DNA from: Datnioides undecimradiatus
Lineage: Eukaryota; Chordata; Actinopteri; Lobotiformes; Datnioididae
DNA length: 64,000 bases
Assembly (NCBI GenBank): GCA_008933995.1
Contig: WARS01002947.1
Span: forward strand, 579,884-643,883
Reading direction: 5' to 3'
Below, in pieces: positions 14,350 through 58,136 of the stretch. Position 1 is the first letter of the stretch; each line of letters begins with the position of its first letter. A program made the position numbers and the translations under genes. The notes beneath the pieces are model-generated. The model did no database searches. It saw only the letters and a program-made list of their open reading frames with translations, and was not told the DNA's origin.

Positions 14350-14466
14350 ATCCATCACTGACAGGGAGAAGACACTTAGAGGGATTTGACTCTCCTCTGA
14401 GTGTGCTCTTTCTCTGCTCCCCTCTTCTCTGTGACTCCTTCCCTTTCAGAGGAAACAAAACCAGCC

Positions 14467-33943: not shown

Positions 33944-34800
33944 CAGTTGCAATCAGAAATATATAGGGATGTGGATGAAAGATAATGACAAGAGAAAAAG
34001 AAGTTGACTTCACTTTGAAATTCAAATGAAAAATGCAACTAATTTAACACTTGTGCATGTGTAGTATTATCCCCCCAGCTTCAGTATTTTGTGGAGCATC
34101 CTTTAGCTTTTATAACTTCGAACAAACGTTTTGAGTAAGTGCTGACAAGCTTCTTCCACCTGTCGATTGGAATCTTTGCCCATTATTCACATGCAAAAGC
34201 CTCTAGCCCAGTGATGTCTGATGGCTTCCGTGCTGTCACTACCTTCTTAAAACCCCACCAAAGATTTTAAATCCGATTTAAATCTGGTGACTGAGAAGGC
34301 TTTTTCTCAGCCAAGCTTTGGCTGACTTGAAAGTGTCCTTTGGATCATTGTCTTGCTGGAAAGTCCAGTGATCACCAAGGTTTAATTTGTCAACAGCAGG
34401 CATCACATTTTTCTTTAAAATGGCCTGGTATTTCCAGGAATCGATGGTTCCGGTACATGATCAAGACTGCCAGTTCCTGCTGCAGAACAACAGCACCATA
34501 TCAAAGACCCACCTCCATGCTTGACCATGGGGATGGTATTCTTCTGGTCATTCACACGCCAGACATACCACTGGTCCATATGTCCAAACAGTTCCAGTTT
34601 GGTTTCTTCTAAACTATAGATCTGTCTCTCAAAACTCCTCCTCCTCCTTCTAGTTGACTTTGGACATTCCATGTGTGAAGTCCTTGTTTATTAAGTGCAT
34701 GTCTTATGGTTGCCACTGAAGCACTTGTACCAGCCTTCATCAGGTCATCCCAGGTGTCTTGCAGTCACACGGAGTTTTCTTAGTTTGACAGCGAACAAAT
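33944..34800 (-). mobile_element. Tc1-like DNA transposon, degraded
   Basis: The left end reads TA then CAGTTGCAATCAGAAAT, a terminal sequence of a known fish Tc1-like family inserted at TA. The minus strand encodes transposase pieces: GHMDQWYVWR, DQKNTIPMVKHGGGS and CCCSAAGTG, the region between the catalytic acidic residues of Tc1 transposases. The reading frame is broken in several places and the right terminal repeat was not found. From 34395 on the sequence is also present, with changes, at 44948-45362. Confidence 0.8.
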
Positions 34801-35329
34801 GAAGGATCATTATAGAGTTCCCTATATTTACTCATATTAACTCCACTTTAGCCCATAAACTAATGAAGGCTTTAAAAGCAACAGTATTATATAGGGGTTG
34901 GTTGCATATGGCTATCTTAACAAAATATACTGTTACACACAAGTACGACATTATCCATTTTATGTGTTGATTTTATGTATCACTCAACACATAAATAAGT
35001 CATCCGAAGCAGAATCTTGCTTTCTGAATATTTCCAAATGCAACTGTATGTTATTGCATGATAGCTCAGTGGAGCAAGAACACATTATAGAAATACATAT
35101 GTAAAACTATAAGTAGCCTAGACCACTCTGCTAATGCATGAAATTATCCATTTCAGAATAATATATTTTACATTTAGCGATCAGTTATTGATGCTTTCAC
35201 GTGTACATCACTAACGTTGCGCTTATTTTAATCCACAGTAATAAATTCTATCTATATCTTTTACTTCCAATCATTCAGGCTGCAGGTTTCGGATTATATT
35301 TTGAAGGCGAGTCAATTAGATTTCCTGTC

Positions 35330-35668
35330 CCACCCTGTCTGACTCCGTACCTCTTGTCTCAGCAGACTGTCCGCTGCTCTGACTGTTGTTAGTGGAGACC
35401 GGAGCGTGTCCGGAGCACCTGCGATCGCACAGCAGAGACTGCTTAATGTGCTGACGGGAACACACAGACATACACAGACACACACATATACAGACACAAC
35501 CTCTGGACTTGGACTGTGTTTCTCTCAGTAGGACGGTGACTCTCCCCTAGTTTTCCTGAGGGAAAACTAAAAGTATCGCGAAGTTGTTGACCCTCTTCAA
35601 CGTGGATGTGGGTCTATGTTTCGCTCAACACCGTGGACGGCTGATCACACACATTGCTCATCTCACAG
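35330..35668 (+). other. Candidate 5' untranslated first exon and promoter, copy A
   Basis: A CpG-richer block in an AT-rich region (GGAGACCGGAGCGTGTCCGGA, GCGATCGCACAGCAG) ends in CTCACAG followed by GTAAGA, a near-ideal splice donor. There is no long open frame, so it would be an untranslated exon of a + strand gene whose coding exons lie beyond this window. The start is approximate. No transcript evidence is available here. Confidence 0.4.
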
Positions 35669-36874
35669 GTAAGACCCATCATTTGTTAATAAATGAATGA
35701 AAGAGGATGTTGTTGTTTGCAGTGTCACGTGGGCTAAACGATACTTCTTGATACCGCTTTTGTTTTTACACTGCAGACACGGGACTTCAAAGGGAACGCT
35801 GAGCTTGTCTCCTGTTGTGGTACAGAACCCAAAGTGATTGGTGTGACGCTTCATGTCCTACCTGCCACAGACCCACACCTCTGACCTCTCGTCTCATGGC
35901 TTTGCACTGGGAGCACTGTCCCTTTGTCAGCTGATGTAGGAATGTGTGTGAGCCAAATGTCAAATACCTAGATCACCTGCTAGCAATCTGCTGGACACAC
36001 ACAGCTGAGTGTTTACTGCCTTCTTTACAAAACACTGGTGATCTTTTTCCCATGTTTGCTGAACTTGACAGGAGTTCATAGGCTTTTAGATGTGTTTCTG
36101 GCATTTCTGGGTGATGATGATGGACAGTGTTTATTCATATTTGGCTGTGAAATATGAGGATTGAAACAGCTTCATTACCTGTTTGAATATTATGAGGTTT
36201 CTTTTTCTATATTATACAGTTCATGGGAAAGCACCAGTGTCAGTTTAACCTGTGTTTAGAGCCAGTGGTACCATGATTTCACCTGTTCACAGACAAGGTG
36301 AGGTTTGGCCTATGGAGAACCTCCCCTCCAGTCTGTGTTTTGCACCAGCTGAGTGTGTGAGTGTATGGAGATGCTGAACCTAAAGTGAGGAAGCTTTTCA
36401 GTGTGGGGTAAAAAAGGAACATGGAGTTGAGTTCAGCTGTTGGTTCCCTTCTTCTTTACCAGCTGTTAGATTTTATCTCGCAAAATGATAAACATCTTAG
36501 AAACTGATCAAAATCAAAACATCTGAAAACATGATTTCATGCAAAACAGTGTTGCGTTGTGGGAAGAGGGTTTTCTTCACAAATATACTGGAAGAAGATC
36601 AAATGTCTGAGAGCAAATTTCATTTCCAACCTCTGTACAGATTCTTGTGGTAGTGAAGCCCAAACCTTGGCACGTAATCTCCTCTTTCCTCTGCCCTTAC
36701 ATGGGCTCCCAGCATCCACACATTTTTGAATAGCAGGCCATCTGCTTGCTGAGCGTCCAAAAGCACAATATCACATTACCCACACTGGCTGTGGGGGATG
36801 AATGGAAGTGTGCGTGGTGCTGGCATTACAGTGTCGGAGACTGTGTGGAATAGTTCGATTGTTCACAGACTTGA

Positions 36875-37226
36875 CCTGTGTGTAGGATTTAGTGGCATCT
36901 AGCTGTGAGGCTGCAGATTGCAACCAAGTCAATATCATTCCACTCCCCCTCCTCTTCTGAGCGTGCAGGAGCTATGGCTGCGATTAATGCAAATGGGTCT
37001 CAGTGTTTGGTCTGTCTGTTCGACTGTAGAAACATGGTGCTGCAACATGGCGGTCCCTGTGTAGATGTAGATGTACTGAACCTGTTCTAAGCTAACAACA
37101 ACACACAATGTCTCTTGACCTCATGACTTTTATTTTATATTTTCATACTCTAACTAATGCATATCCTATGAGTTTTTTATGTTCAGTTTCTGCCAATGGT
37201 TCTCCTAAAACCCACATACTGGAAAC
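36875..37226 (+). mobile_element. MITE-like non-autonomous DNA element, copy A
   Basis: The left end CCTGTGTGTAGGATTTAGTGG and the right end, whose reverse complement reads CCAGTATGTGGGTTTTAGGA, form imperfect terminal inverted repeats of a type very common in teleosts (CCAGTGTGTAGGATTTAG). The interior includes AACATGGCGGTCC-like text seen in that family. The 61-codon open frame inside is not a gene. Confidence 0.6.
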
Positions 37227-40200
37227 TTAAAGCCAGCTTATCACCTTAGCCAATGGGTGACAACTGTGTGGAGCCCCAAAATGAGAATTAAAATGTCAAA
37301 AAAAAAACCCTTTTAATACGACAATCAATCATAATGATGCAGATTTATCATAAAAAAGTGAATTGTACTGAAAGAGAATATGTGGGACATAATGTTTTAT
37401 GAAATTAAAATAAAGAGTCTCTTAACCAAATAAGAACCAAAATGCCACAGTTGTATGCAGAACAGCAAAGGGATGGATACCATTACACATACACACCCAT
37501 TTCATACTGATACTGAAGTATTAGAAAAATGCAAAATGAGTTGAGAAAATGCAAATGTTGCAAACAGAAAAATAAACCATAAAATGTGAGCTAAGACTGA
37601 AAAAATGGAAACCTGTGGAGCTGGAAATTAAAAGAGGTAATGAAAGATAAGAAGAAGACTAAACTAAATGTGTTTTCATTTATTTGAATTCAATTTGGAT
37701 TTTGTCGAAATTAAATAGATTCCTTGTACCACCTCTGTGATTGAGGTTAAAGGTTTTTACAGTCTGTTCTAATCATTGAACAGTATTATTTATTGATGTA
37801 GTCAGTTTTATATATGACAAGTCAGATAAGCTTTTGCAACAGTTTCTCCATATAACCAGACATTTTGTGCCTCCACATCCCAAACAATATTGCAGGTTTT
37901 TGCCATTTCTGCATGAAGAGCTTTTGAAATCAAACTGTGGGATGATTATTCTCATTTGGTGGCATACAGGAAGTGGTTAGGTTACCATCCGGACCTCAAA
38001 CCTCTCAGACACAGAGGAATGGGTCGGCGGCCACTTCAGCTGCAGCTGGTCATTGAAAAGCGATGCTCTGCAGCTAGTGCTGCCATTTTTCCTGTCCTTC
38101 TATGCGAATCATAAAGTAAGACTGCTATCTTGTATATTCGCAGTAAGGGTAGGGGTGTTATGATTTACAGATGTCAAGTGAGAGCACACTGTAGGTTGCG
38201 GGGTCTGCCTTCTGGCAGCCTGGAGAACTGGAAATGAGGGGGACAAATGAAATGTTAATGCTTTTGTAAATCGATGCCATGTGAGCTCTCAGTGAGCTCT
38301 CACATTAGATCATCTCAGGTGTCAAGCATATACCGTAATAGGATGTTAGATGTATTTTTAGCAGTTAACGAGGTGGTGGAAAACAGGAAAGAAATGGCTG
38401 GGATGCAATCTGATGACCCGCTGACTTTCTGATGAGCTCTTGCTCGTTAATGAATGATTGTATTGGTAACTTGTTGTGTGAGCTCAAGTTATGATCTCAT
38501 TGTAATTATTAGCTTAACTGTAACATGAAAGAACCACTGGAGTGTAGAGAAGTTGAGCATGTTGATCTGAGTAAGTGTGAGAGAGAGAATGTGCATGTCA
38601 GATTTTGATGATAGTATTTTGGGTGTTCCCTGTATTGGTCCCTGCAACAGCTGGTGGTCCCTCATGGTGCATTCTTTCTCTGTGCGTGTGTGTGGGCTGT
38701 CTTTGTACTGTAATGGGTGTGGGAGCAGAGTTTCTGCAGAGAAGACTTGCTGAGGCACTGAGAAGACGAGGAAAATGATCAGCATTGTGCAAATCATAAA
38801 CCCATATTTTCCTCTCCTATGTGCAAAAGAAGTGTAACTTCAAGTCACTTCTATCATTTTTACAAGCACAGTGGAAATGCTTTGGGAATGGTTGACCCTG
38901 GGTCAGATGTGCTCACTATCTGCTGGTTCCAAGCCCTCAAGGGAGTTTGGCTGACGGGCAGATTAGCAGCTCAATAAATGCTTCTTTTCATTAGCAGCAA
39001 GCTTCTGTGCACTGTACTTAAAATGGAAATCCCCTCTATCCTCTCATCCTATTAGCAGAGGTACGGCACGAGTAGACTCCTGTGTGTACATGCACAAATG
39101 TATCATGACACATAATAGTCCTTCATGAGACCAGATGCATGTGAAACCACCATGAGGGAACAAAGTAGTTCCTGATAGTTCACAGTACACATCTGTATGA
39201 TTTAAGGCAGGGCCTCCAGTTACTCCAACAGATCAGTGTTCACTCCTCAGCAGTGTTGCCTCAACTCAGCCCAATGAAACAGACTTATCCATGTTCGTTG
39301 GTGGGAAGCTGTTGAGGGATCCTTGAGTGAGTTCCAGTTGGTCTGTCTGCATTGTGTTGTTTTGTCTACACTGTCCTAGGCTAAAGTGGGCAACAACTGT
39401 AGTGTTTGGGAATATGTCTATTCTGAATTGTAGGGAAAAGTGAAAAAATAGTGCTCACATTGTTTTTTCTCAATATTGCCTGATGTGGTTGCAGGCCACT
39501 AGTATTTTTCAAATTACTAATTGTAGCACTTATTACAAGTTAGCCAGTGCTCCACCATCTTCAGCCTTTGTTGCTAAAGATGCTCTATAACTTAATATTT
39601 CTTTTTATGCTAGTGCCTATAGTTTAACGGAAATAATATACTGATACACTGTCTGGTCTATGAGCACTCTGCTATGATGTATATTTGATTTTTGAGGTTA
39701 GGGAAGCATTAAGCCCAACGTAAAGGACCACTCTGTTTCACTGCCCATGGAGATGGTACTCCTGTTGTACCTGAAAAATTTCAGGTAAAAATTGGTAAAG
39801 TGCAAATATAAACCTGCGTCAGTGTGACTAAAACAAGGTTTTCAATATGAAAATCAAGGTTTAAAGAATTTGATTTCTAGAAATGTTCCAGATGGCATTT
39901 TAAAAATTTAAATTACATCAGTGAGATTAGTCACTGTGTGGATGTTAAAAATAAGCATCTAATATGGTCAAGATGACGCCAGTGATGTAAATCCTTTGAT
40001 CTAATCTGCTTATATTAGGTCAGAAGAAGGCATGCCATATGAAACCCAGAGAGCTGCATTTTTTTATTGTTCCTGAGCAGCCCTTTGTCCTTGGGACAGT
40101 TATCTATGAACATGGCACCACCGCCCTCAGCCAGCCTAGTCCCTGTCCCCTACCCAGCTCCCCGGAGAGCCTCAGCCCAGCCTGCAGCACAGCCTCTAGA

Positions 40201-43200
40201 CACTATCCTAAACCCTCGGCTGCTGATTGTTAAACCTGTAGTGTGAAACAAATGACCAGTCACTTGTTAGTCTTAGTACGAGTTCCCATTCTGTCTGTTT
40301 ATTTTCTATACTGTAGCCCTCAATGTCTCGACTGTTGGACTGTTACATTTAGGTCCCAGTTGCCTGTACAGAAACATAAACCCTTTCTGCCCTGTTGTTG
40401 CTCCCCTGACAGGCTGGGGAAGCAGGCCTGTGGACAGTTGCCTTGGGCCCAGTAGCTATGCCTGTAATCTTGACTGACCCACAGGTGGAGCATTCCCCTT
40501 TCTTATATAAATGCCCTGCATCTGTGTGTGGGGTTTCTGCTGTGAGGGTATGGCAACTGTCATCAATGTCCCAAAATGTAATGCTAATAGTGACACCACT
40601 GCTGACATTTGATTTGTGTCATTGTTAGTTCTCAAGATCATCCTTGAATTAATTACTTCTGCTGCTAACAAGGAGACTGGCTAGCAGTCAATGAATGATC
40701 AATATCATTTGCATGACGAGATAACATTCTCTGAATTGATTGATCAAACAAACCCAACTGAGCTGCTTTACTTAGCTGTCAATTGGACTAATGGATTTGG
40801 AATTTACTTGTTTGTACACACAGAAGGCAGGTCCAGAGGCTAGTGCTAAGTCATTTTCTTTCTTGATTGTCTGTAGGCTCGCCAGATACAGGGGTTCATC
40901 TGGATCCTCAGGTTCATCAGCAGTGAAGACCTAGGATTCTCAGAGTACAGTTAGATCCCAGTAGGTTAAATCCCCTTAGGCCACTCGGGAGCAGGGCATG
41001 AAATGAAAAGAAGCTTTCCCTGCAGGGCCACATCTGTCTAGGACACTTGATTAGCTCATTGATTACCTACAACTATGTTGCCTGCATTGGCTCTGCTGAT
41101 GTTTAACAATCACTGGCATTACTGGGTGATTTTATTGACAGTTAAATTAAGTTTTGAGTTCTATTTTTAGGATTTTACATTGGCTCATTGAATTACAAAC
41201 TCAAAAATGCCCTCTTGGGCTCCATACTTGCTGATGAGGTCATCCACAAGGACATACATTCTCATAAATTAATTAATGAAATTCACATAAAGTCAAATTT
41301 CATTAATTAACACAATTTTTTGGTCTGCTTTAAAGTTTCTCCCTTTCATGTCGTTTTAAGAAGATTCTTGTTGTGTTTACACTGTGGAATCAGCTCAGTG
41401 GGTACTTTAGATTTTTATGTTGTAATATTAGTGAAAGTAAAATCCTCTTAAGTCTCCTGCTGATTAATGAAAAGCTGAGGGGAAGTAATGCGGTTGAAGA
41501 TTAAACCATAAAACCCCCAGTGCAAATTTACCCGCTTCCCAGTATGAAGTCCACCGACAGCCTCTGGCAGGCTGCTGGTTTATTTAAAGGCATTCAGCTG
41601 CTTGCGTACTTTTAGTAAGGTCACAATATTGGAATTCTGTTGTTTGTAAATCACAGGATGCAACAACCAACACAAAACCAGATAGTTTCCCAAGATCTTC
41701 CTTCCACACTGCCATTCTCTCCTGAGAGTTCATTAAACCAACAACATATTGACTGGGTGACACTTGAGTGATGAGATCACAAGTAATCCCACAGCATAGG
41801 GACTCAAACTCATCAAACATATCAGAATTTTTATCACATAATGACTCATTTACAATCTTTATCTTTTCCAAAATAAATATCAAGTCTGTTTTGGCAAACA
41901 AACACAAACAGCTGTTTAATAACTATCATGCTTCACTTTCTTGGTTTCTTTTCACAAAGCATTTCAACCATTAAAATTATGTAAATGATGCAGTCCTCAC
42001 TTTCTCGATGCATTATGTTGATACAGATACCGGCTCTCCACTTACTGTTCAAACAGTAGCTCAGTGGGAAACGCTGATCTCATTTGGTTGCGCGGATCTG
42101 TCCGTGAAAGGTTGGTATTGAACCCGAAAGTGGCTTTAAATGACTCTGTTCTTGGCTTACAGGAACTGACAAGTTGATGCTTTTCTGTCAAACTATTCCA
42201 GGCTTTTTGTGAGTGACTGCCCACTCACTGCTCTTCACAGAAAGAGGAGAGGGAGAGGCATACTGTTCTGAGCTGAACAGTATAATTTAGTAAAGGACCT
42301 TGGCCCATGGGCAGAGTTTAGCAGAAAACTCATGATTTTGTGTGTTTCCTCCAAGTGCAGCAGCTGCAGCAGAACGAGGAGGAACTCATTTAGATGGTTT
42401 GTTTGACCGGTTTGACCATGGCAATGGAAAAGTCTGCCTAATTGTTATGATCCACTTGGCCCTGAGCCACAGCAAAACATGCCTGCTTATTAACATAAAG
42501 CCCTGCAAAATCGGTTTTATCCTGGATTTGTTTTCTTGCTCAGGTTAGTTATATGCTGTATGGCTTATATAACAAGCCAGTGTAATACTGATCTCTGAAT
42601 CACATCTTGAATTGATCAGTGATGAGATTTCAGGTCTGCTGCTCAGCAATTTCTTCCAAGCACTAAACAACAACAAAAGAATGTCTCAATAATTTTTAGT
42701 TTGCAAAGGAAACCAATAGTTCACCAATAATTGTGTTTTTTTTTGAAAGAAGCATTCCAGGACTTTATCTTTATGGCAAAACGTAGGAACTGGCAGGTGA
42801 CTGACAAAGTTGGAATTCTGCTTCTTCATAGATTGACATAGATTGTGAACCCAGATCTAGCAGGGTGATTATGGGTGACGAGGCGTGTGTAGACCTGTGC
42901 ATTACATTGTTGACTGAAACTTCCAATTCAGGGAAGTTAAATGTACTACAAAAGAAATGTGGGACAACAGTGTAATTAATTTGTACTGAGCAACAGTCAA
43001 CATGAAATATGTATTGGGTTCAATTTCTGCTACAACGAGCAGAAAGTTTATTTCTTAAGAAAAATGAGATATGAACGCTCAGCACATTCCTCTGCTCCTG
43101 ATCAAGCAGTAGGAGAGGTGCAGCAGTCTGTGGGGGGCTAAACCAACAGACTGCAGCATGTCTGGGTGTAGGAGAGAAGGGATTGTCACAGTGGTCACAG

Positions 43201-44150
43201 CATAAAGGACCACACAGTGAGAGAGCAGAAGGACATGACACAAACACAGGAAAACCAGATCATTATAGTCCTGAATAGGAACAGCGGACGGCCTTCTCTG
43301 CTCCCTCTGTAAAATGTTTATTTCATACAGTAAAGTTGCAAGCACACCACTACACCATTAACAAATGTCAATTACATCAAGTTATTCAGGTCTACATTCA
43401 GTCAGTTGCTTGATATGCTGCTGCAGAATAACACAGCCTACAGGGTGCATCTGTATTCTGCTGCATTCAGGCTCTGTATGGAGGAAATGAAAGAGATTTG
43501 AGAGACCCTTTGGAATCCAGTCCAGAGCCAGACTGCTCTCACTTCTAGGGAACAAGTTTTAAATTATACAGGACACTAAAATCATCTGCATTTGACCTCG
43601 CAACGGAAGGACATCTCAGACTTCACAGATTATTGGCCTGCAGTCATTAAGGCATCTTGCAGCTCATGAAGGATCCAATTGCCTTAAAAACAATAAAAGG
43701 CCCCACGCAAGAATGTTTTTGTAATCTTGTCCTAAAGCTGCCTTTCTGTTTTTCATGCCGGATTGTAATTTCACGAATGCTTTAAAGTGTTGCCGTATAA
43801 AATCATCAGACAATAACCTTTAGCAGCGACAGTAGTTGTATTAGGCTGTAGCTGAAATAATACAATAAAGAAATATTATTACAGCTGCAAATAGAGTGTC
43901 ATCAGAGCAGCAGCTCAGGGTTGCAATCCAAGATTTCATACACGCGAAGATTTTTTAAATTATTACTTTTGTTAATTATTTTATTTCAGCTGTGATTCAA
44001 CTGATTTGGCATTATGAATCTGAATTCAGACAAGTTGTTTGCCAGCTGTGGAGCAAAAATCTCAGACAACATAAGCTGGGGAGAAAATGCTAAAAATATA
44101 TCAGGCTTCCTCTGAAGAAAAACTTCCTGATTTTAGGAGCACCACATAAA
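37227..44150. other. Gene-free interior of duplication copy A
   Basis: No supported exon. Several AT-rich blocks with homeodomain- and octamer-like motifs (for example 40680-40860 with ATTTGCAT, ATTGATTGATC and GGACTAATGG, and 41890-42045) match copy B exactly over 100 bases or more and may be conserved non-coding elements. This is inference. Confidence 0.4.
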
Positions 44151-44154
44151 AACC

Positions 44155-44345
44155 ACAGTGTGTTAGCTTAGCGTAGCTTAGATCAATGTAAAAACTGGAA
44201 ACATGGAGTTACAGCTAGCTTGGTAAGGTAACATACCAGCTCACATACCAGATTAATCAACTAAATATTATGTGTTCATTTGGACAAACAGGCTAGCTGT
44301 TCCTCCCAAGTTCATTGTTGCAGGTACATTTATCTTAGCTTTGTT
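44155..44345 (+). repeat. Dispersed fish repeat (TTAGCTTAGC type), copy A
   Basis: GTGTTAGCTTAGCGTAGCTT, ACTGGAAACATGGAG and CAAACAGGCTAGCTGTTCC belong to the same short teleost repeat family as 27395-27600. The counterpart in copy B lies near 54725-54915. Confidence 0.5.
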
Positions 44346-44560
44346 GACTGCACAGTGCCCAGGTCATAGGACAGATGGTAGCTGCTCACTGTGCGTCTAT
44401 CTCCAGTGCCCCCCTGTGTTGTTCTTGGCTTTACTCAAATCATACCTCCCACCAGGTTCAGCCCACAAGCTATGCACCATGCTTATTATTGTAATATCTT
44501 GCTTTTCACATGCAAGTGGGTGAATGCAATATGAGACGCAGACCAGAAGTTGTTGTTATT

Positions 44561-44582
44561 TTGTGTGTGTGTGTGTGTGTGT
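44561..44582 (+). repeat. (TG)n microsatellite, copy A
   Basis: Eleven TG units. The copy B counterpart at 55141-55158 is shorter. Confidence 0.9.
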
Positions 44583-44884
44583 TTGAGGCCTTCAGTGGTC
44601 TCCATTAGTCGAACAGTAGTCGGGTCAAGTCTGTTTGTCCAGCTGCTGATTCACCCCCTAGTAGGCTCTCACACACTCTCACACAAACACACACTGTTGC
44701 ACCTGGCTCTAGTCATTCCAAGTCCTCAAAGTACTAAAGTTGAACTTAACCCTTGACTAACCCCGCAAAAATCCTAAAGCTCAGCCAAAATCTCTTTTTG
44801 TTCAAGATTACAATTACTTTTCCATAATGTTCGTGCTTTTGAATGCCCTACAGGCTTTCTTAAAGAGGGCTGTCCTATACCTCT

Positions 44885-44887
44885 ACA

Positions 44888-44918
<31 letters not shown>

Positions 44919-44919
44919 T
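44885..44919 (+). repeat. (CA)n microsatellite near the end of copy A
   Basis: A CA run interrupted once by TA. It lies only some 30 bases before the junction between the two copies. The counterpart is 55441-55471. Confidence 0.9.
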
Positions 44920-44947
44920 GTGGCTTTCTGCTTTTGTGTCCCATCTA

Positions 44948-45362
44948 AGCAGGCATCACATTTTTCTTTAAAATGGCCTGGTATTTCCAGGAATCGATGG
45001 TTCCAGGTACACAATCAAGACTGCCAGTTCCTGCTGCAGAACAACAGCACCACATAATCAATGACCCACCTCCATGCTTGACCATGGGGATGGTATTCTT
45101 CTGGTCATGAGCCTGGCCTTTTGCACGCCAGACATACCACTGGTCCATATGTCCAAACAGTTCCAGCTTGGCTTCTTCAGTCCATAGATCTGTCTCTCAA
45201 AACTCCTCCTCCTCCTTCTAGTTGACTTTGGACATTCCATGTGTGAAGTCCTTGTTTATTAAGTGCATGTCTTATAGTTGCCACTGAAGCACTTGTACCA
45301 GCCTTCATCAGGTCATCCTGTAGGTGTCTTGCAGTCACACGGGAGTTTCTCTTAGTTGACAG
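44948..45362 (-). mobile_element. Tc1-like transposon fragment in copy B
   Basis: The minus strand reads GHMDQWYVWR without its beginning in frame, then AKGQAHDQKNTIPMVKHGGG, CCCSAAGTGSLDCVPGTIDSW and KYQAILKK. This is the Tc1 transposase catalytic region. It is the same insertion as 34395-34800, cut at its left side by the duplication boundary, and is better preserved than in copy A. Confidence 0.8.
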
Positions 45363-45914
45363 CTGAACAAATGAAGGATCATTATAGAGTTCCCAAGGCT
45401 TAAATTAAGTATTAACTCCACTTTAGCCCATAAAAACTGTCAGAAGGCTTTAAAAGCAACAGTATTATATAAGGAATAATTGTGACATGGGCTATCTTAA
45501 CAAAATATACTGTTGCCATTGGGCACGATGATTATCCATTTTATGTGTTGATTTTATGTATCACTCAACACATAAATAAGTCATCCCAAGCAGAATCTGC
45601 TTTCTGAATATTTCCCAAATGCAAATCAGGCTGTTATTGCATGATAGCTCAGTGAGCAAGAACACATTATTATAGAAATACATATGTAAAACTATAAGTA
45701 GCCTCCAGACCACTCAATGTGAAGAATTATCCATTTCAGAATAATATATTTTTACATTGTATGATCACAGTTATTGATGCTTTCATCGCGGTACATCACT
45801 AACGCTAGCGCTTTATTTTAATCCACAGTAATAAATTCTATCTATATCTTTTACTTCCAATCATTCAGGGGCTACAGGTTTCCGGATTATATTTTGAAGG
45901 CGAGTCAATTAGAT

Positions 45915-46263
45915 TTCCTGTCCCACCTGTCTGACTCGCACTTTGCAGGTCTCAGCAGACTGTCCGCTGCTCTGACTGTTGTTAGTGGAGACCGGAGCGT
46001 GTCCGGAGCACCGGCGACCGCACAGCAGAGACTGCTTAATGTGCTGACGTAACACACAGATACACAGACACACACACATAGCTGGCATACAACCCTGACT
46101 TGGACTGCTTCTCTCAGTAGGACGGTGACTTCCCCAGTTTTCCGGGTATTTGAGGGAAACTAAAAAGCATCGCGGGTTGTTGACCTCTTCAACGTGGATG
46201 TGGGTCTGTGTTTTCGCTTCAACACCGTGGGACGGCCGATCACACACATTGCTCATCTCACAG
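45915..46263 (+). other. Candidate 5' untranslated first exon and promoter, copy B
   Basis: Counterpart of 35330-35668 with the same donor (CTCACAG then GTAAGA). The CpG-rich core is well kept, while flanking parts differ by short indels. If the duplication is real, the downstream gene would have two alternative first exons; if not, only one exists. Confidence 0.35.
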
Positions 46264-47438
46264 GTAAGACCCATCATTTGTTAATAAATGAATGAAAGAG
46301 GATGTGTTGTTGTTTGCAGTGTCACGTACAGATAATTTCTTTTGATAAAGCTTTTTGTTTTACACGACATCGGACTGTGGAACGCTGGAGTTGTCTCCTG
46401 TTGTGGTACAGAACCCAGAAGGATTATGTGACGCTTCATGTCCTACCTGCCAGACCTAACACACCCTCTGACCTCTCGCTGCCCCATGGCTTTGCACTGG
46501 GAGCACTGTCCCTTTGTCAGCTGATGTAGGAATGTGTGTGAGCCAAATGTCAAATACCTAGATCACCTGCTAGCAATCTGCTGGACACACACAGCTGAGT
46601 GTTTACTGCCTTCTTTACAAAACACTGGTGATCTGCTCTGACAGTGTTTGTTGAACTTGACAGGAGTTCATAGGCTTTTAGATGTGTTTCTGGCATTTCT
46701 GGGTGATGATGATGGACAGTGTTTATTCATATTTGGCTGTGAATGAGGATTTCGAAACAGCTTCATTACCTGTTTGAATATTATGAGGTTTTTTCTATAT
46801 TATACAGTTCATGGAAAGCAATTCAGTGTCAGTTTAACCTGTGTTTAGAGCCAGTGGTACCATGATTTTCACCTGTTCACAGACAAGGTGAGGTTTGGCC
46901 TATGTAAGAACTCTCCAGTCTGTGTTTTGCACCAGCTGAGTGTGTGAGTGTATGGAGATGCTGAACCCAAAGTGAGGAAGCTTTTCAGTAAAAAAGGAAC
47001 ATGGAGTTGAGTTCAGCTGTTGGTTCCTTTCTTACCAGCTGTTAGATTTATCTCGCAAAATGATAAACATCTTAGAAACTGATCAAAATCAAAACATCTG
47101 AAAACATGATTTCATGCAAAACAGTGTTGCGTTGTGGGAAGAGGGTTTTCTTCACAAATATACTGGAAGAAGATCAAATGTCTGAGAGCAAATTTCATTT
47201 CCAACCTCTGTACAGATTCTTATGGTAGTGAAGCCCAAACCTGCACGTAATCTCCTTCCTCTGCCCTACATGGGCCCCAGCATCCACACATTTTGAATAG
47301 CAGCCATCTGCTTCGTTGAGGTCCAAAAGCACATCACATTACCCACACTGGCTGTGGGGGGATGAATGGAAGTGTGCGTGGTGCTGGCATTACAGTGTCG
47401 GAGACTGTGTGGAATAGTTCGATTGTTCACAGACTTGA

Positions 47439-47788
47439 CCTGTGTGTAGGATTTAGTGGCATCTAGCTGTGAGGCTGCAGATTGCAACCAAGTCAATATC
47501 ATTCCACTCCCCCTCCTCTTCTGAGCGTGCAGGAGAGCTTACAGTGGCTGCGATTAATGCAAATGGGTCTCAGTGTTTGGTCTGTCTGTTCGACTGTAGA
47601 AACATGGTGCTGCAACATGGCGGTCCCTGTGTAGATGTAGATGTAATGAACCTGTTCTAAGCTAACAACAACACAATGTCTCTTGACTCATGACTCTTAT
47701 TTTTATATTTTCATACTCTAACGAATGCATATCCGTGAGTTTTATGTTCAGTTTCTGCCAATGGTTCTCCTAAAACCCACATACTGGA
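47439..47788 (+). mobile_element. MITE-like non-autonomous DNA element, copy B
   Basis: Counterpart of 36875-37226 within the second duplication copy, with the same imperfect inverted ends. A burst of changes near 47531-47541 separates it from copy A. Confidence 0.6.
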
Positions 47789-50700
47789 AACTTAAAGCCA
47801 GCTTATCACCTTTGCCAATGGGTGACAACTGTGTGGAGCCCTAAAATGAGAATTAAAATAAACAAAAAAATTTTTAATAATTTAATAATCAATCATAATG
47901 ATGCAGATTTATCATAAAAAGTGAATTGTACTGAAAGAGAATATGGGACATAATGTTTTATGAAATTAAAATAAAGAGCTCCTTAACTAAATAGCGACCA
48001 AAATGCCACAGTTGTATGCAGAACAGCAAAGGGATGGATACCATTACACATAGCTATCAATCTATTTCATACTGATACTGAAGTATTAGAAAAAATGCAA
48101 ATGAGTTGAGGAAAAATGCAAATGTTGCAACAGAAAATAAACCATAAAATGTGAGCCAAGACTGAAAAATGGAAACCCTGTGGAGCTGGAAATTAAAAGA
48201 GGTAATGAAAGATAAGAAGAAGACTAAACTAAATGTGTTTTCATTTATTTGAATTCAATTTGGATTTTGTCGAAATTAAATAGGATTCCCTTTGTTCACC
48301 TCTGTGATTGAGGTTAAAGGTTTTGCCAGTTCCGTTCTAATCATTGAACAGTATATTTATTGATGTAGTCAGTTTTATATATCAGATAAGCTTTTGCAAC
48401 AGTTTCTCCATATAACCAGACATTTTGTGCCCACATCCCAAACACACAGCAGGTTTTTGCCATTTCTGCATGAAGAGCTTTTTGAAATCAAACTGTGGGA
48501 TGATTATTCTCATTTGCTGGCATACAGGAAGTGGTTAGGTTACCATCCGGACCTCAAACCTCTCAGACACACACAGAGGAATGGGTCGAAGGCCACTTCA
48601 GCTGCAGCTGGTCATTGAAAAGCGATGCTCTGCAGCTGAAAAGGCCATTTTCCTGTCCTTTCTATGAATCATAAAAGTGCACTGCTGGTCTTGTATATTC
48701 GCAGTAAGGGTAGGGTAAGCGTGATTTACAGATGCCGATGAGCAATGCCAAGTAGTCTGCCTTTCAGCAGCCTGAGAACTGGAAATGAGTGGGGACAATG
48801 AAAATGTTAATGCTTTTGAAATCGGATGCCATGTGAGCTTTCCTCAGTGAGCTCTCACATTAGATCATCTCAGGTGTCACATACTGTAATAGGATGTTAG
48901 ATGTATTTTTAGCAGTTAACGAGGTGGTGGAAAACAGGAAAGAAATGGCTGGGATGCAATCTGATGACCCGCTGACTTTCTGATGAGCTCTTGCTCGTTA
49001 ATGAATGATTGTATTGGTAACTTGTTGTGTGAGCCTGCTATGATCTCATTGTAATTATTAGCTTAACTGTAACATGAAAGAACCACTGGAGTGTAGAGAA
49101 GTTGAGCATGTTGATCTGAGTAAGTGAGAGAGAGAATGTGCATGTCAGATTTGATGATAGTATTTTGGTGTTCTGTATTGGTCCCCCCAAACAGCTGGTG
49201 GTCCTCATGGCATTCTTTCTCTGTGCGTGTGTGTGGGCTGTCTTTGTACTGTACGTGTGGAGCAGAGCTTGCAGAGTAAAGACTCTGGTTGAGGCACTGA
49301 GAAGACGAGGAAAATGATCAGCATTGTGCAAATCATAAACCCATATTTTCTCCTCTCCTATGTGCAAAAAGAAGTGTAACTTCAAGTCACTTCTATCATT
49401 TTTGCTAAGCACAGGAAATGCTTTTGGGAATGTGGTTGGACCTGGGTCAGATGTGCTCACTATCTGCTGGTTCCAAGCCCTCAAGGGAGTTTGGCTGACG
49501 GGCAGATTGGCAGCTCAATAAATGCTTCTTTTCATTAGCAGCAAGCTTCTGTGCACTGTACTTAAATGTAAAATCCCCCATCCTCATCCTGTTAGCAGAG
49601 GTACTGCACTAGTAGACTCCTGTGTGTACATGCACAAATGTATTTTATCATAATAGTCCTTCATGAGACCAGATGCATGTGAAACCAATTATGAGGGAAA
49701 CAAAGTAGTTCCTGATAGTTCACAGCACACATCTGTATGATGGCTAAGCAGGGCCTCCAGTTACTCCAACAGATCAGTGTTCACTCTCAGCAGTGTTGCC
49801 TCAACTCAGCCCAATGAAACAGACTTATCCATGTTCGTTGGTGGGAAGCTGTTGAGGGATCCTTGAGTGAGTTCCAGTTGGTCTGTCTGCATTGTGTTGT
49901 TTTGTCTACACTGTCCTAGGCTAAAGTGGGCAACAACTGTAGTGTTTGGGAATATGTCTATTCTGAATTGTAGGGAAAAGTGAAAAAATAGTGTCACATT
50001 GTTTTTTTCTCAATATTGCCTGATGTGGTTGTACACTTAGGGTATTTTTCAAATTACTAATTGTAGCACTACAAGTATTACAAGATAGCTTGTGTGCCCA
50101 CCATCTTCAGCCTTTGTTACAAGATGCTCTATAACTTAATATTTCTTGCGTTGTGCTCATAAAGGTTTGAACGTGAAATAATATACTGATACACTGTCTG
50201 GTCTATGAGCACTCTGCTATGATGTATATTTGATTTTTGAGGTTAGGGAAGCATTAAGCCCAACGTAGCGACCCTCACCTTAGCCCACTGCCCATGGAGA
50301 TGGTAAGATTCTGCTGTACCTGAAAATTTCAGGTAAAATTTTGGTAAAGTGCAAATATAAACTCAAGGCCAGTGTGACTAAAACAGGTTTTCATTATGAA
50401 AAATCAAGGTTTAAAAGAATTTGATTTCCAGAAAATGTTCCAGATGGCATTTTAAAATTTAAATTACATCAGTGAGATGAGTTCACTGTGTGGATGTTAA
50501 AAAATAAGCATCTAATATGGTCAAGATACCAGTGATGTAATCCTTTTGATCTAATTCCGCTTATATTAGGTCAGAAGAAGGCATGCCTATATGAAAACCC
50601 AGAGAAGGCATTTTTTTATTGTTCCTGGAGCAAGTCTCTTGTCCTTGGGACAGTTATCTATGAACATGGCACCACCCCCTCGCCCTCAGCCACAGCCTAG

Positions 50701-53700
50701 TCCCTGTCCCCTTACCCAGCTCCCCGGAGAGCCTCAGCCCAGCCTGCAGCACAGCCTCTAGACAATATCCTAAACCCTCGGCTGCTGATTGTTAAACCTG
50801 TAGTGTGAAACAAATGACCAGTCACTTGTTAGTCTTAGTACGAGTCCCATTCTGTCTGTTTATTTTCATACTGTAGCCCTCAATGTCTCTGGACTGCTGG
50901 ACTGTTACATTTAGGTCCCAGTTGCCTGTGGCCAGAAACATAAACCCTTCTGCCTAAGTTGTTGCCCTGATTGCTGTTACAGGCCAGGACAGTTGCCTTG
51001 GGCCCAGGAGAGCTATGCTCTGCATCTGACTGACTCACAGGTGGAGCATTCCCTTTCTTATATAAATGTCTCTGCATCTGTGTGTGGGGTTTCTGCTGTG
51101 AGGGTATGGCAACTGTCATCACTGTCCCAAAATGTAATGCTAATAGTGACACCACTGCTGACATTTGATTTGTGTCATTATAGTTCTCAAGATCATCCTT
51201 GAATTAATTACTTCTGCTGCTAACAAGGAGACTGGCTAGCAGTCAATGAATGATCAATATCATTTGCACAATAGACGAGATAACATTCTCTGAATTGATT
51301 GATCAAACAAACCCAACTGAGCTGCTTTACTTAGCTGTCAATTGGACTAATGGATTTGGAATTTACTTGTTTGTACACACAGAAGGCAGGTCCAGAGGCT
51401 AGTGCTAAGTCAGCTTTTCTTTTCTGATTGTCTGCAGGGGCTCGCTGTGATACAGGGGTTCATCTGATCCTCAGGTTCATCAGCAGTGAAGGACTCAGGA
51501 TTCTCAGAGTGTCAGTTAGACCCAGTAGCGAATCCCCTTAGGCCACTCGGGAGCAGGGCATGAAATGAAAAGAAGCTTTCCCTGCAGGGCCACATCTGTC
51601 TAGGACACTTGATTAGCTCATTGATTACCTGCGAACTATGTTGCCTGCATTTATTTCTGTTGATGTTTACCAATCACTGGCATTAATGGGTGATTTATTG
51701 ACAGTTAAATTAAGTTTTGAGTTCTATTTTTTAGATTTTACATTGGCTCATTGGAATTAGTAAACTCAAAAATGCCTCTTGGGTCTATACTTGCTGATGA
51801 GGTCATCCACAAGCAAGACATACATTATAATTAATTAATGAAATTCACATAAAAGTCAAATTTCATACTAACACAATTTTTTTGGTCTGTTTTAAAGCCC
51901 CTTCATGTCGCTTTTTAAGAAGATTCTTGTTGTGTTTATTAATTGTGAATCAGCTCAGTGGGTACTTTAGATTTTTATGTTGTAATATTAGTGAAAGTAA
52001 AATCCTCTTAAGTCTCCTGCTGATTAATGAAAAGCTGAGGGGAAGTAATGCGGTTGAAGATTAAACCATAAAACCCCCAGTGCAAATGTACCCGCTTCCC
52101 AGTATGAAGTCCACCGACAGCCTCTGGCAGGCTGCTGGTTTATTTAAAGGCATTCAGCTACAGGTACTTTTAGTAAGGTCACAATAAATTCATTGGAATT
52201 CTGTTGTTTGTAAATCACAGGATGCAACAACCAACACAAACCAGATAGTTTCCCAAGATCTTCCTCTTCCACTGCCATTCTCCCCTCCTCTCTGGAGAGT
52301 TCATCATTTAAACCAACAACATATTGACTGGGTGACACTTGAGTGATGACTGCTGCAGTAATCCTACAGCATAGGACTCAAACTCATCAAACATATCAGA
52401 ATTTTATCACATAATGACTCATTTTACAATCTTTTATCTTTTTCCAAAAATAAATTGAATAAGTCTGTTTCTGGCAAACAAACACAAACAGCTGTTTAAT
52501 AACAACTATCATGCTTCACTTTCTTGGTTTCTTTTCACAAAGCATTTCAACCATTAAAATTATGTAAATGATGCAGTCCTCACTTTCTCGATGCATTATG
52601 TTGATACAGATTTTTCCACTTACTGTTCAAACAGTAGCTCAGTGGGAAACGCTGGATCTCATTTTGGTTGCGTGATCTGTCCGGAAGGTTGGTATTGAAC
52701 CTGAAAAGTGGCTTTCTTAAATGACCTCTGTTCTTGGCTTACAGGAACCGACAAGTTGATGCTTTTCTGTCAAACTATTCCAGGCTTTTGTGAAAGTGAC
52801 TTGCCCACTCACTGTTTCACAGAAAGAGGAGAGGGAGAGTATACTGTTCTGAGCTGAACAGTGCACTTAGTAAAGGACCTTGGCCCATGGGCAGCTTAGC
52901 AGAAAACTCATGATTTGTGCTTCTCAAGTGCAGCAGCTGCAGCAGAACGAGGAGGAACTCATTTAGATGGTTTGTTTGACCGGTTTGACCATGGCAATGG
53001 AAAAGTCTGCTCAATTGTTAGATCCACTTGGCCCCTGAGCCACAGCAAAACATGCCTGCTTATTAACACATAGCCCTGCAAAATCGGGTTTATCCTGATT
53101 TCATTTTCTTGCTCAGGTTAGTTATATGTTGTATGAAGCTTATATAACAAGCCAGTGTAATACTGATCCTCTGAATCACATCTTGAATTGATCAGTGATG
53201 AGATTTTTGTGTCTGCTGTTTCAGCAATTTCTTCCAAGCACCAAAACAACAACAAAGAATGTCTCAATAATTTTTAGTTTGCAAAGGAAACCAATAGTTC
53301 ACCAATAATTAGAGCTTGAAAGAAGCATTCCAGGACTTTATCTTTATGGCAGGAAAAACGTAGGAACTGGCAGGTGACTGACAAAGTTGGAATTCTGCTT
53401 TCATACTGACATAGACAGAACCCATCTAGTGCAGGGTGATTATGGGTGACGAGGCGTGTGTGTGTAGACCTGTGCATTACACAAGCTGACTGAAACTTCC
53501 ACCAGGGGAAGTTAAATGTACTACAAAAGAAATGTGGGACAACAGTGTAATTAATTTGTACTGAGCAACAGCTCAACATGAAATATGCATTGGGTTCACT
53601 TTTGCTACAACGCAGCAGAAAGTTTATTTCTTAAGAAAAATGAGATATGAACGCTCAGCACATTCCTCTGCTCCTGACTGCTAGAGAGGTGCAGCAGTCT

Positions 53701-54724
53701 GTGGGGGGCTAAACCAACAGACTGCAGCATGTCTGGGTGTAGGAGAGAAGGGATTGTCACAGTGGTCACAGCATAGCTGACCACACAGTGAGAGAGCAGA
53801 AGGACATGACACAAACACAGAAACCAGATCATTATAGTCCTGAATGTGGAACAGCGGGACGTGCCTCTCTCTGCTCCTCTGTAAATGTTTATTTCATTGT
53901 GTGTCAGTGTTAGCCACCACTACAATCATTAACAAATGTCAATTACATCAAGTTATTCAGGTTCACATTCAGTCAGCTGCTTGATATGCTGCTGCAGAAT
54001 AACACAGCCTGTATTACAGGGCAGTAATCTGTGTATTCTGCTGCATTCAGGCTCTGTATGGAGGAAATGAAAGAGATTTGAGAGACCCTTTGGAATCCAG
54101 TCCAGAGCCAGACTGCTCTCACTTCTAGGGAACAAGTTTTAAATTATACAGGACACTAAAATCATCTGCATTTGACCTCGCAACGGAAGGACATCTCAGA
54201 CTTCACAGATTATTGGCCTGCAGTCATTATACCTTGCAGCTCATGAAGGGATCCACCGTTCCTAAAAACAATAAAAGGCCCCACGCAAGAATGTTTTTGT
54301 AATCTTGTCCTAAAGCTGCCTTTCTGTTTTTCATGCCGGATTGTACTTCACCTATCAAGCTTTTAAAGTTGCCGTATAAAAATCATCAGGTATCAATAAC
54401 CTTTAGCAGCTACAGTAGTTGTATTAGGGTTGTAGCTGAAATAATACAATAAAGAAATATTATTACAGCCAGTAAATAGTGTCATCAGAGCAGCAGCTCA
54501 GGGTTGCAGTCCAAGATTTCATACACGCGAAGATTTTTTAAATTATTACTTTTGTTAATTATTTTTATTTCAGCTGATTCAACTGATTTTGGCATTATGA
54601 ATCTGAATTCAGACAAGTTGTTTTAAGGCCAGGAGCAAAAATCTCAGACAACATGTTGGGAGAAAATGCTTAAAATATATCAGGCTCTGAAGAAAAACTT
54701 CCTGGATTTAGATACCACATAAAA
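47789..54724. other. Gene-free interior of duplication copy B
   Basis: Counterpart of 37227-44150. No supported exon. The same candidate non-coding blocks recur near 51245-51415 and 52480-52610. Confidence 0.4.
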
Positions 54725-54915
54725 CCACAGTGTGTGTTGAAGCTTAGCTTAGCTTAGATCAATGTAAAAACTGAAACATGGGAGTTGGTTGTTAGCTTGG
54801 TAAGGTAACATACCAGCTCACATACCAGATTAATCAACTAAATATTATGTGTTCATTTGGACAAACAGGCTAGCTGTTCCTCCCAAGTTCATTAAGCTGT
54901 AGGTACATTTATCTT
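54725..54915 (+). repeat. Dispersed fish repeat (TTAGCTTAGC type), copy B
   Basis: Counterpart of 44155-44345; GAAGCTTAGCTTAGCTTAG and CAGGCTAGCTGTTCC are kept. Confidence 0.5.
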
Positions 54916-55440
54916 AGCGAGCCTGACTGCACAGTGCCCAGGGTCATAGACAGATGGTAGCTGCTCACTGTGCGTCTATCTCCAGGTGGCCCCCCCCCGT
55001 GTTGTTCTGGCTTTACTCAAATCATACCTCCCACCAGGTTCAGCCCACGTTATGCACTATGCTTATATTATTGTAATATCTTGCTACATGAAAGTGGGGT
55101 GAATGCAATATGAGACGCAGGACCAGAAGTTGTTGTTATTTTGTGTGTGTGTGTGTGTTTGAGGCCTCAGTGGTCTCCATATCGAACAGGTCAAGTCTGT
55201 TTGTCCAGCTGCTGATTCACCCCCTAGTAGGCTCTCACACACTCTCACACAAACACACACTGTTGCACTGGCTCTAGTCATTCCAAGTCCTCAGCACAGT
55301 TGAACTTAAACCCTTGACTAACCCGCAAAACTTAAAGCTCAGCCAAAATCTCTTTTGTTCAAGATTAAGAATTACTTTTCCATAATGTCTGTGCTTTGAA
55401 TGCCCTACAGGTTTTCTTAAAGAGGGCTGTCCTATACCCC

Positions 55441-55471
55441 CACACACACATACACACACACACACACACAC
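55441..55471 (+). repeat. (CA)n microsatellite near the end of copy B
   Basis: CA run with one TA interruption, followed by the last bases of the duplicated unit. Confidence 0.9.
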
Positions 55472-55501
55472 TGTGGCTTTCTGCTTTTGTGTCCCATCTA
55501 A

Positions 55502-58136
55502 ATGGACCCCCCCCCCAGAGGCATGTCTTGATAGTCCGTGTCCGTCTGCCTCTCTGTCCTCCCACTGTCCCTCCCTCCTGTCACTCTTTGCATCTTTTCT
55601 TTAGCTCGGGTCTACAGTTTGACCCCAGTTGCCCTTGACACATACATTTCTAAAGATTCAGCCAATCAATACAGACTCCCGTGGCTCGGTGTCAGATGTT
55701 GGGTCCACTAATTGAAACCAACAACAACCCAGGGTGAGCGACAATGAGCATTTTTAGGGTGTGTGTGTTGGATTGATGAATGAGGAGGCTAGAGGATCTG
55801 CTATATTCACATGGTGATCACCCGGTCATCAGCTTTTGTTCAGACCTCTGCTTTTTGCAAGATTAGCGAGAAAAATTGTACCGCAATCACGTCAGCTGTA
55901 TGATGCCAAGATGAATGTGGCCAAAGTGAGAATTATGCATGAAAATGTGGTAATAGCATCTTTCTGAGAGGGATAGTTTGGGTTTTTTGAAGTAGTTATG
56001 CTGTTTTCTTCACACCCACTAGACTCCTTTCGTTCATTGTGTTATTATGTGACTTTAGTGTTTTAAAGGCTTAGCTCAGATTCAGTGAAGTCACAGACTA
56101 TCACAAACAGAGGTAGATAAGCATCTCTGGTCTTCTGCCAGGTAAAATTAATGTAAATATGAATTTTGCATATTAATGAAATTAAATAATGAGAAGTCCT
56201 GCCAGAAATTATGCTGTAACATTATTTAAACACATCAAATTATGAATGTACAAAACAGAGATATCAGTTAACAATATCATTTTTTGCCTTTATTGTCTGT
56301 TAAGTGTCTCTTGTGAACAACAGAACAACACAGAATGTGGCAAATAAAATTCATAATAAAAAGTAATATATCTAATATCTGTAGAGTTGAATAAAGGCTG
56401 AGGAACAGAGGAGGACCTGAAATTCACCTGAGAACATGATTTATTGAGCAGTTTGTTGCCTTAAATGCCATGATATATTTTATTACTCATAAATACTGAG
56501 CGCCTGAATAAATAATAGAAGAGAACTCTTTCACTAAAAGGACCTCAGCACATGTTAATTATGTTGCATTTGCCAGCTGCACTTGTAAGCATGTCTATTG
56601 ACAAAAGAGGATGCAAATAGCCAATGAAGAAGCTCTTGACTTTTAAGCTCTCCTGTGTGTGACCAAAGCAGGTGACAAGAGTGCGGTCGCTCTGCTGAGT
56701 GTGGAAGTGCAGGGCACGCCTGGCCGAGTGGGGAGTAAATCATTTAAGCAGACAGTAATGTCTGTTAGGTTGTCCTCAGTATCAGGCCTCCTGCAAACCA
56801 CGTGCACAGTTTAACTTGGAGCCTGAATGAGAAGAGGAATATTGTGGGCTTGGTTGTGTTGAGGCAGAAGAAAAGGAACAGCGCTGCTTTCAAAGCTACC
56901 GTAATTAATCCCAAGCATCAGTCAGACCGTTCTCATTAATAATGCATTTCTGAGCAGCAGTCCTGACATAGGGAGTGAATTCAAGTCTTTATTCAATGAT
57001 TCAGCAGCAATGTCAGGCAACTCTCAGAGCCAGTCTGCTTCCCCTGAAAGTCAGCAACCAGCAATCAAGAACGTTATTGAGTTGAGCCATGTTCAGCTTT
57101 TGAAACAATAAGACAAACAGCTTAGGATTAAAACAGCATTAAAATGCCTACTTCTGTGGTCATGGTTATGTCCAAAACTCAGTGTATTACTAATGCCTCA
57201 TGCACTACAGTGCTGTGGCTCCTTACTGTTTTTTCTTGTGTCTTTAGGTTCAGAGATGTATGGCACCGGACACGGCACCAGCATCCTTGCACCACTGAAC
57301 AGTTTTAACAGTTTAGCACAATGTTGACAATTACATAATCTGGCAACTGCAGCTCCGTTAGCTGTAAGAACGTACTGTTGCAGGATAGCCACAGTTGTTA
57401 AAGTGGAAATATTCAGGTAAAATTCAAGTGTTTACACCGCCATCCTTGACTGTCTGCTGCACGCCTGGTGCTTGATCACAGATGCAATGCAAAGGTCCTG
57501 CATTGTCATATCAAACCAAATACACTACTCAGTGAGGTAACATACTCCCTGTGTTTCTTTTCAACCATTTAAAACAAAGCTTGAGGAAGAAAGGGGATTT
57601 ATTTTCATTATGGAATTAAAACCTTGAGTATTTACATTTGATCTGATTTCTTTTAACCTTTCTGACACCAAACAAGCTGTGCCTTCAGCATGAATCCAAG
57701 AAGCAATAGCTTAAAGAGGTGGTTGAAATAGTGATATTTCTCTTTTGAATATAGTAATATATACATTATGTCACTTTAAGGGAATTGATATGTGTGTGCG
57801 TGTGTGTTTTGTATTTCTCAGAATAATGTTCTGGTCTGTCTGGACTAGTTTGCAATTCTGTTTGTCTTTCGCTGCTCTGAGCACAGCCAAAACCATGCGG
57901 GCAGCAGCAGGGTCTCTGCAGAGCTACAGCGGTTTGGCTTTGATCAGGGTGTTTTCTTCCACAGCGGCCTCTCTCAGGTCTCAGCTCAATCTGGCTTTTT
58001 ACACACTCTTTTGTTCAGAATGGGTTTTGTCCCGCTTTGGTCAAATTTGTTATTTTTCCTCTCCATTTCTGCCCGTTCACTTGTTAGACCTTGCTTTCTC
58101 TCTCTCGCCCTCCTTTTCTTCCTCATTATCACTCTC
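55502..58136. other. Gene-free stretch after the duplication
   Basis: No supported exon. GAGGGATAGTTTGGGTTTTTTG near 55968-55990 resembles the edge of a dispersed fish repeat. An AT-rich block near 56890-57060 (CCGTAATTAATCCCAAG, CATTAATAATGCATTTC) looks like a conserved non-coding element, which is inference. Confidence 0.4.

Follow-up and report, generated by a model that had tools for sequence, protein, structure and literature searches.

A head-to-tail 10.6-kb repeat that is probably a false duplication left unpolished in a nanopore-based assembly

The window analysed here, a stretch of 64,000 bases (C224:579884-643883 of an assembly of 581,297,614 bases in 497 contigs), contains a unit of about 10.6 kb twice in succession. 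We propose that this repeat is probably a false duplication of a nanopore-based assembly, whose embedded copies stayed unpolished after cleaner copies of the same sequence drew the reads. The differences between copy 1 and copy 2 look like uncorrected read noise and are not evolutionary change.

Results

Geometry of the repeat and content of the window

Self-BLASTN of the window gave one long alignment, pairing 34395-44948 with 44948-55501 at 90.8% identity, with 334 mismatches and 463 gap openings. Copy 1 (34395..44947, plus strand, 10,553 bases) and copy 2 (44948..55501, plus strand, 10,554 bases) adjoin head to tail, which confirms the two complete, collinear copies without spacer reported in the preliminary description. 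The junction 44947/44948 shows neither spacer nor N, and C224 is continuous there. The 120 bases over the junction (44888..45007, plus strand) occur whole only once in the assembly, the transposon-side half having six dispersed relatives at 83-90%. Within 55502-55520, a run of ten C starts six bases past the end of copy 2.

The exact run starting at 36481 and 47056, first estimated at about 165 bases, measured 166 bases, and the word pair cited as an example of scrambling, GAGCTATGGCTGCG against GAGAGCTTACAGTGGCTGCG, was found between copy 1 and copy 2 as described. By comparison with a geometric law, exact runs reached 100 bases or more 13 times (0.95 expected) and 50 bases or more 42 times (25.3 expected), and 209 were of 3 bases or fewer (112.5 expected). 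The alternation of exact runs with bursts of small indels, noted before by eye of the sequence, thus goes beyond chance.

At its left end, the unit carries a relic, which we take to be a Tc1-like transposase, on the minus strand. The frame is broken by small indels in copy 1 (34395..34687), where the relic extends into the left flank below 34395, and is open over 83 codons in the loose contig C385 and in copy 2 (44948..45196), where it is cut off at the junction. A Pfam search of the Tc1-like pieces gave no match, and Rfam and tRNA scans of the window yielded no hits. A type II keratin gene was located at 14401-19000 of the window (about 14.4-19 kb) from Pfam matches and homologues, with a glycine-rich head and tail and nine open pieces amounting to 568 codons; these pieces were chosen by eye as open and are therefore a weak control for the quality of the flank sequence. 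Among the 120 matches listed, of 5616 to the keratin query, the highest rod-domain identity was that of Enoplosus armatus, at 95% with 63% of the query covered, and the keratin homologues indicate that the window is teleost. A protein-kinase exon on the minus strand (26842-27174), presumably p38-like by its motif, scored 31.0 bits in Pfam, just under the 31.7 cut-off. As to the regulatory function proposed earlier for the unit, we found no evidence for or against it.

Spectrum of the differences between the copies

One scoring scheme separated the copies by 239 substitutions and 481 indel events, and with five schemes the counts were 342 to 550 for indel events and 239 to 418 for substitutions. 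On the plus strand, T/C differences outnumbered A/G differences (103 versus 38, p = 4e-8). A diverged segmental duplication is expected to be substitution-dominated and strand-symmetric, and this expectation was contradicted by indels leading in four of the five schemes and by T/C being ahead in all five. Such a strong strand preference is absent from evolutionary change and is expected from reads of one strand. In the parts of PMC8486125 consulted, where the strand of the nanopore reads is retained, A/G substitutions are 3-5 times commoner than transversions, C/T substitutions are only slightly commoner, and the errors rank as deletions, then mismatches, then insertions. Because the nanopore bias is towards A/G on the read strand, the T/C excess on the plus strand points to minus-strand reads, and we infer nanopore as the sequencing platform.

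The isolated events amounted to 138, with 55 one-base homopolymer indels and 27 single substitutions. By themselves, these 27 substitutions comprised 9 T/C versus 5 A/G on the plus strand, which is not significant, and one of the 14 isolated transitions fell at CpG/TpG. Among 49 sites where a CpG was aligned to something else, 10 faced TG or CA. Markov models trained on the flanks were tried for polarising the differences and preferred neither copy, the bursts favouring copy 1 and copy 2 in ratios of 124:125, 124:126 and 131:119 at orders 3, 4 and 5, respectively. This outcome fits errors in both copies, short of proof.

Two loose contigs as third and fourth copies

The assembly contains four occurrences of a 200-base piece taken from the unit, two in C224 and one in each of the loose contigs C362 and C385. 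These contigs, both of 10,644 bases and one base apart, cover the unit end to end and stop at its ends, and their ends meet exactly at 44947/44948 with one base in common. Possibly they represent the two haplotypes. A 301-base probe from the left flank, 3.1-3.4 kb outside the unit, is single-copy in the assembly, beside which four copies of the unit are in excess.

As C385 gives a third sequence to compare, nearly all differences could be ascribed to one embedded copy. Of the three-way columns, 9472 agreed, 557 set copy 1 apart from the other two sequences, 730 set copy 2 apart and 61 set C385 apart, and in 15 all differed. This assignment upholds the earlier suggestion of incompletely polished long-read sequence. 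Deletion events against C385 numbered 134 (234 bases) in copy 1 and 157 (268 bases) in copy 2, substitutions 120 and 151, and insertion events 105 (143 bases) and 131 (178 bases), respectively. In both copies the order is deletions, substitutions, insertions, as in the nanopore order given in the consulted parts of PMC8486125. In the orientation of C385, A/G exceeded C/T in copy 1 (45 versus 24, p = 0.015) and in copy 2 (65 versus 21, p = 2e-6). Isolated substitutions against C385 numbered 12 in copy 1 and 6 in copy 2, about 0.2% together, a count in which substitutions within bursts cannot be judged.

Distribution of errors and CpG sites

At short range, errors in copy 1 and errors in copy 2 avoid one another. 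Bins of 25 bases with errors of both copies numbered 38 of 425 versus 59.2 expected, and not one of 424 circular shifts gave so low a number; for bins of 50 bases it was 43 versus 54.8, again with no shift as low. With bins of 100 and 200 bases the overlap was not significantly low (45 versus 48.8 and 34 versus 35.7; 11% and 15% of shifts), and this count partly hides columns where both copies err. The error counts of copy 1 and copy 2 were negatively correlated at all four bin sizes (-0.16 to -0.42). The short-range avoidance fits polishing with reads drawn to the locally better copy.

CpG accounted for 32 of 1258 and 30 of 1259 changed dinucleotides, versus 84 of 9294 unchanged ones. The nearly equal CpG totals (113 in C385, 116 in copy 1, 114 in copy 2) argue against the creation of CpG by random errors, and the rise of 0.06 in the CpG ratio simulated under the random-error model was absent from the copies. 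A mixture fit, which gave random shares of 0.48 and 0.38, was withdrawn as a measure of the error share. The CpG of C385 is the dinucleotide most often hit, with 15 of 113 (13.3%) in copy 1 and 22 of 113 (19.5%) in copy 2, compared to 7.3% and 9.8% for all dinucleotides. These hits possibly come from base-calling at methylated sites.

Other contig pairs in the same assembly

A second head-to-tail pair was found at C334:17898144-17908809 and 17908811-17919475, with units of about 10.67 kb that are 91.3% identical. The identity of these copies with their own loose pair C363/C364 (10,730 bases) is 94.7-95.8%, with A/G over C/T of 76 to 23 and 65 to 26 in the loose-strand orientation. The C334 locus thus repeats the arrangement and figures of C224. 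C363 includes 47 bases of the C334 junction, reading into the next copy. The pair C371/C372 has a noisy relative inside C135, with A/G over C/T of 41 to 10 and 34 to 18, and another relative, C111 (18.8 kb), from which the strand bias is absent (6 to 9 and 6 to 12). The single embedded copy of C394/C395, in C17, is clean (99.8%), hence loose copies alone do not cause the noise. For C357/C359, the 300/301-base piece probed had no embedded copy, and one 62-base match at 84%. These other loose pairs were each tested by one 300- or 301-base piece, C394 by two, and in all the head-to-tail pattern occurred in two of the five loose pairs probed (C362/C385 and C363/C364).

When 40 contigs were sampled by their first 300 bases, 22 of them made 11 pairs within the sample, with lengths matching within 0.3% in 9 of the 11; the partners of C362 and C371 lie outside the sample. 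The contigs C473/C474 measure 2,808,140 and 2,811,551 bases and C215/C218 1,967,540 and 1,965,268 bases, and their starts are alike over 200 bases at 100% and 98.5%, respectively. These megabase pairs look as if both haplotypes had been kept. Another duplication of the C224 kind may be present in C285, where the stretches 1548600-1556600 and 1596628-1604628, at a distance of 48,028 bases, align over 8 kb at 98.0% identity with 57 mismatches and 51 gap openings.

Discussion

In the explanation that we favour, an assembly keeping paired contigs would have placed a segment of about 10.6 kb twice in succession in C224, perhaps by setting both arms of one bubble in series, and would have output the same segment twice more as C362 and C385. 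At polishing, several near-copies would have vied for the same reads, and the cleaner ones would have captured them, leaving both embedded copies with stretches of raw noise from minus-strand reads. The animal itself would then have a single copy. This type of artefact is already in print: in the parts of PMC8081667 consulted, false duplications acted as attractors in read mapping, and the primary locus stayed unpolished because of a better alternate copy (legend of Extended Data Fig. 11a for the polishing artefact). We also considered PBJelly-type gap filling and set it aside.

Several observations weigh against a false duplication. The evidence comes from assembled sequence, and no N gap separates the copies, while published cases mostly have one. 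A true tandem loop in the assembly graph would likewise yield loose contigs that stop where the unit ends, and C363 has 47 bases of the C334 junction. In addition, the isolated substitutions alone do not show the strand bias, the bin overlap of errors is no longer significantly low at 100 and 200 bases, the C371 relative C111 lacks the bias, and the embedded copy in C17 is clean despite its loose pair C394/C395.

Some of these points would be accounted for by a real and very young tandem duplication, correctly ordered, with nearly identical copies and perhaps on one haplotype only, in which the 9% would be noise kept because reads could not be assigned between the copies. The unit acts like a single segment of the graph whose ends are exact, C363 reads into the next copy of the C334 case, and the single-embedded copy of C394/C395 is clean and both head-to-tail cases are noisy, as ambiguity between embedded copies predicts. 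No real copy-specific variants stand out, however, in view of the 12 and 6 isolated substitutions against C385, and redundant contigs are common in this assembly, so that we consider this reading rather unlikely. Since the single-embedded copy is clean, polishing may be blocked by ambiguity between embedded copies, whether these are real or false. We likewise consider it doubtful that the noise conceals a real tandem duplication of about 10.6 kb with essentially identical copies, or circular DNA of the unit, perhaps variable between haplotypes, with C334:17898144-17919475 as a second case of nearly the same size. The recent segmental duplication put forward in the preliminary description falls as far as a real divergence of 9% is concerned, and a near-identical one under the noise keeps a small chance.

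A heterotype false duplication, with two haplotypes set in series and real heterozygosity as the source of the differences, would agree with the many near-identical contig pairs of the assembly, up to megabase size. We judge it very improbable, as the spectrum is indel-rich and one-stranded, C385 sides with either embedded copy where the other one differs, and C362 and C385 are only one base apart. A wrongly retained haplotype, the other origin suggested earlier for the divergence, is for this reason not retained, the spectrum being that of read noise. The interleaving of perfect runs with diverged stretches could also be read as gene-conversion tracts in a real segmental duplication about 9% diverged. 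We reject this reading, to which we give next to no credence, on the spectrum and on the errors private to one copy against C385: single substitutions are few among the isolated events (27 of 138), isolated transitions hardly touch CpG/TpG, CpG sites aligned to anything but CpG seldom face TG or CA (10 of 49), and the transition excess lies on one strand. Under both likely readings, the false and the very young duplication, the 9% divergence is technical.

A false segmental duplication of 9% divergence is thereby removed from the record. Moreover, such cases can be recognised without reads, from an excess of indels, a one-strand skew of transitions and a third, cleaner copy that is present in the assembly as a loose contig. 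With at least one further locus of the same pattern, duplication counts and ages taken from this assembly would be wrong there. If instead a real duplication lay under the noise, unpolished bursts would mark very recent copy-number change in draft genomes.

Among the closest known systems is the homotype false duplication. In the consulted parts of PMC8081667, homotype copies are about read length and lie at contig boundaries, and in those of PMC9516828 a gap mostly lies between the two copies, which are sometimes joined without read support. The C224 repeat resembles the cases of these two sources, as far as the parts consulted describe them, in being tandem copies of one locus, in exceeding the expected number of copies in the assembly, and in copies that differ by sequencing error, judged here from the indel-rich one-strand spectrum and the private errors against C385. 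A unit size of 10.6 kb is plausible for a read-length duplicate and equals that of a loose contig, and C224 is continuous at the repeat. The repeat departs from the homotype cases described there in that no gap separates the copies and two further clean copies exist as loose contigs. Unlike the polishing example in the consulted part of PMC8081667, which concerns a haplotype pair, C224 has two noisy embedded copies, and the attraction of reads would here be deduced from the assembled sequence. With young tandem segmental duplications as generally known, the repeat shares the head-to-tail order, the adjoining copies and the unique junction; it differs from them in that its divergence is technical and that nothing in C224 shows a second copy in the animal.
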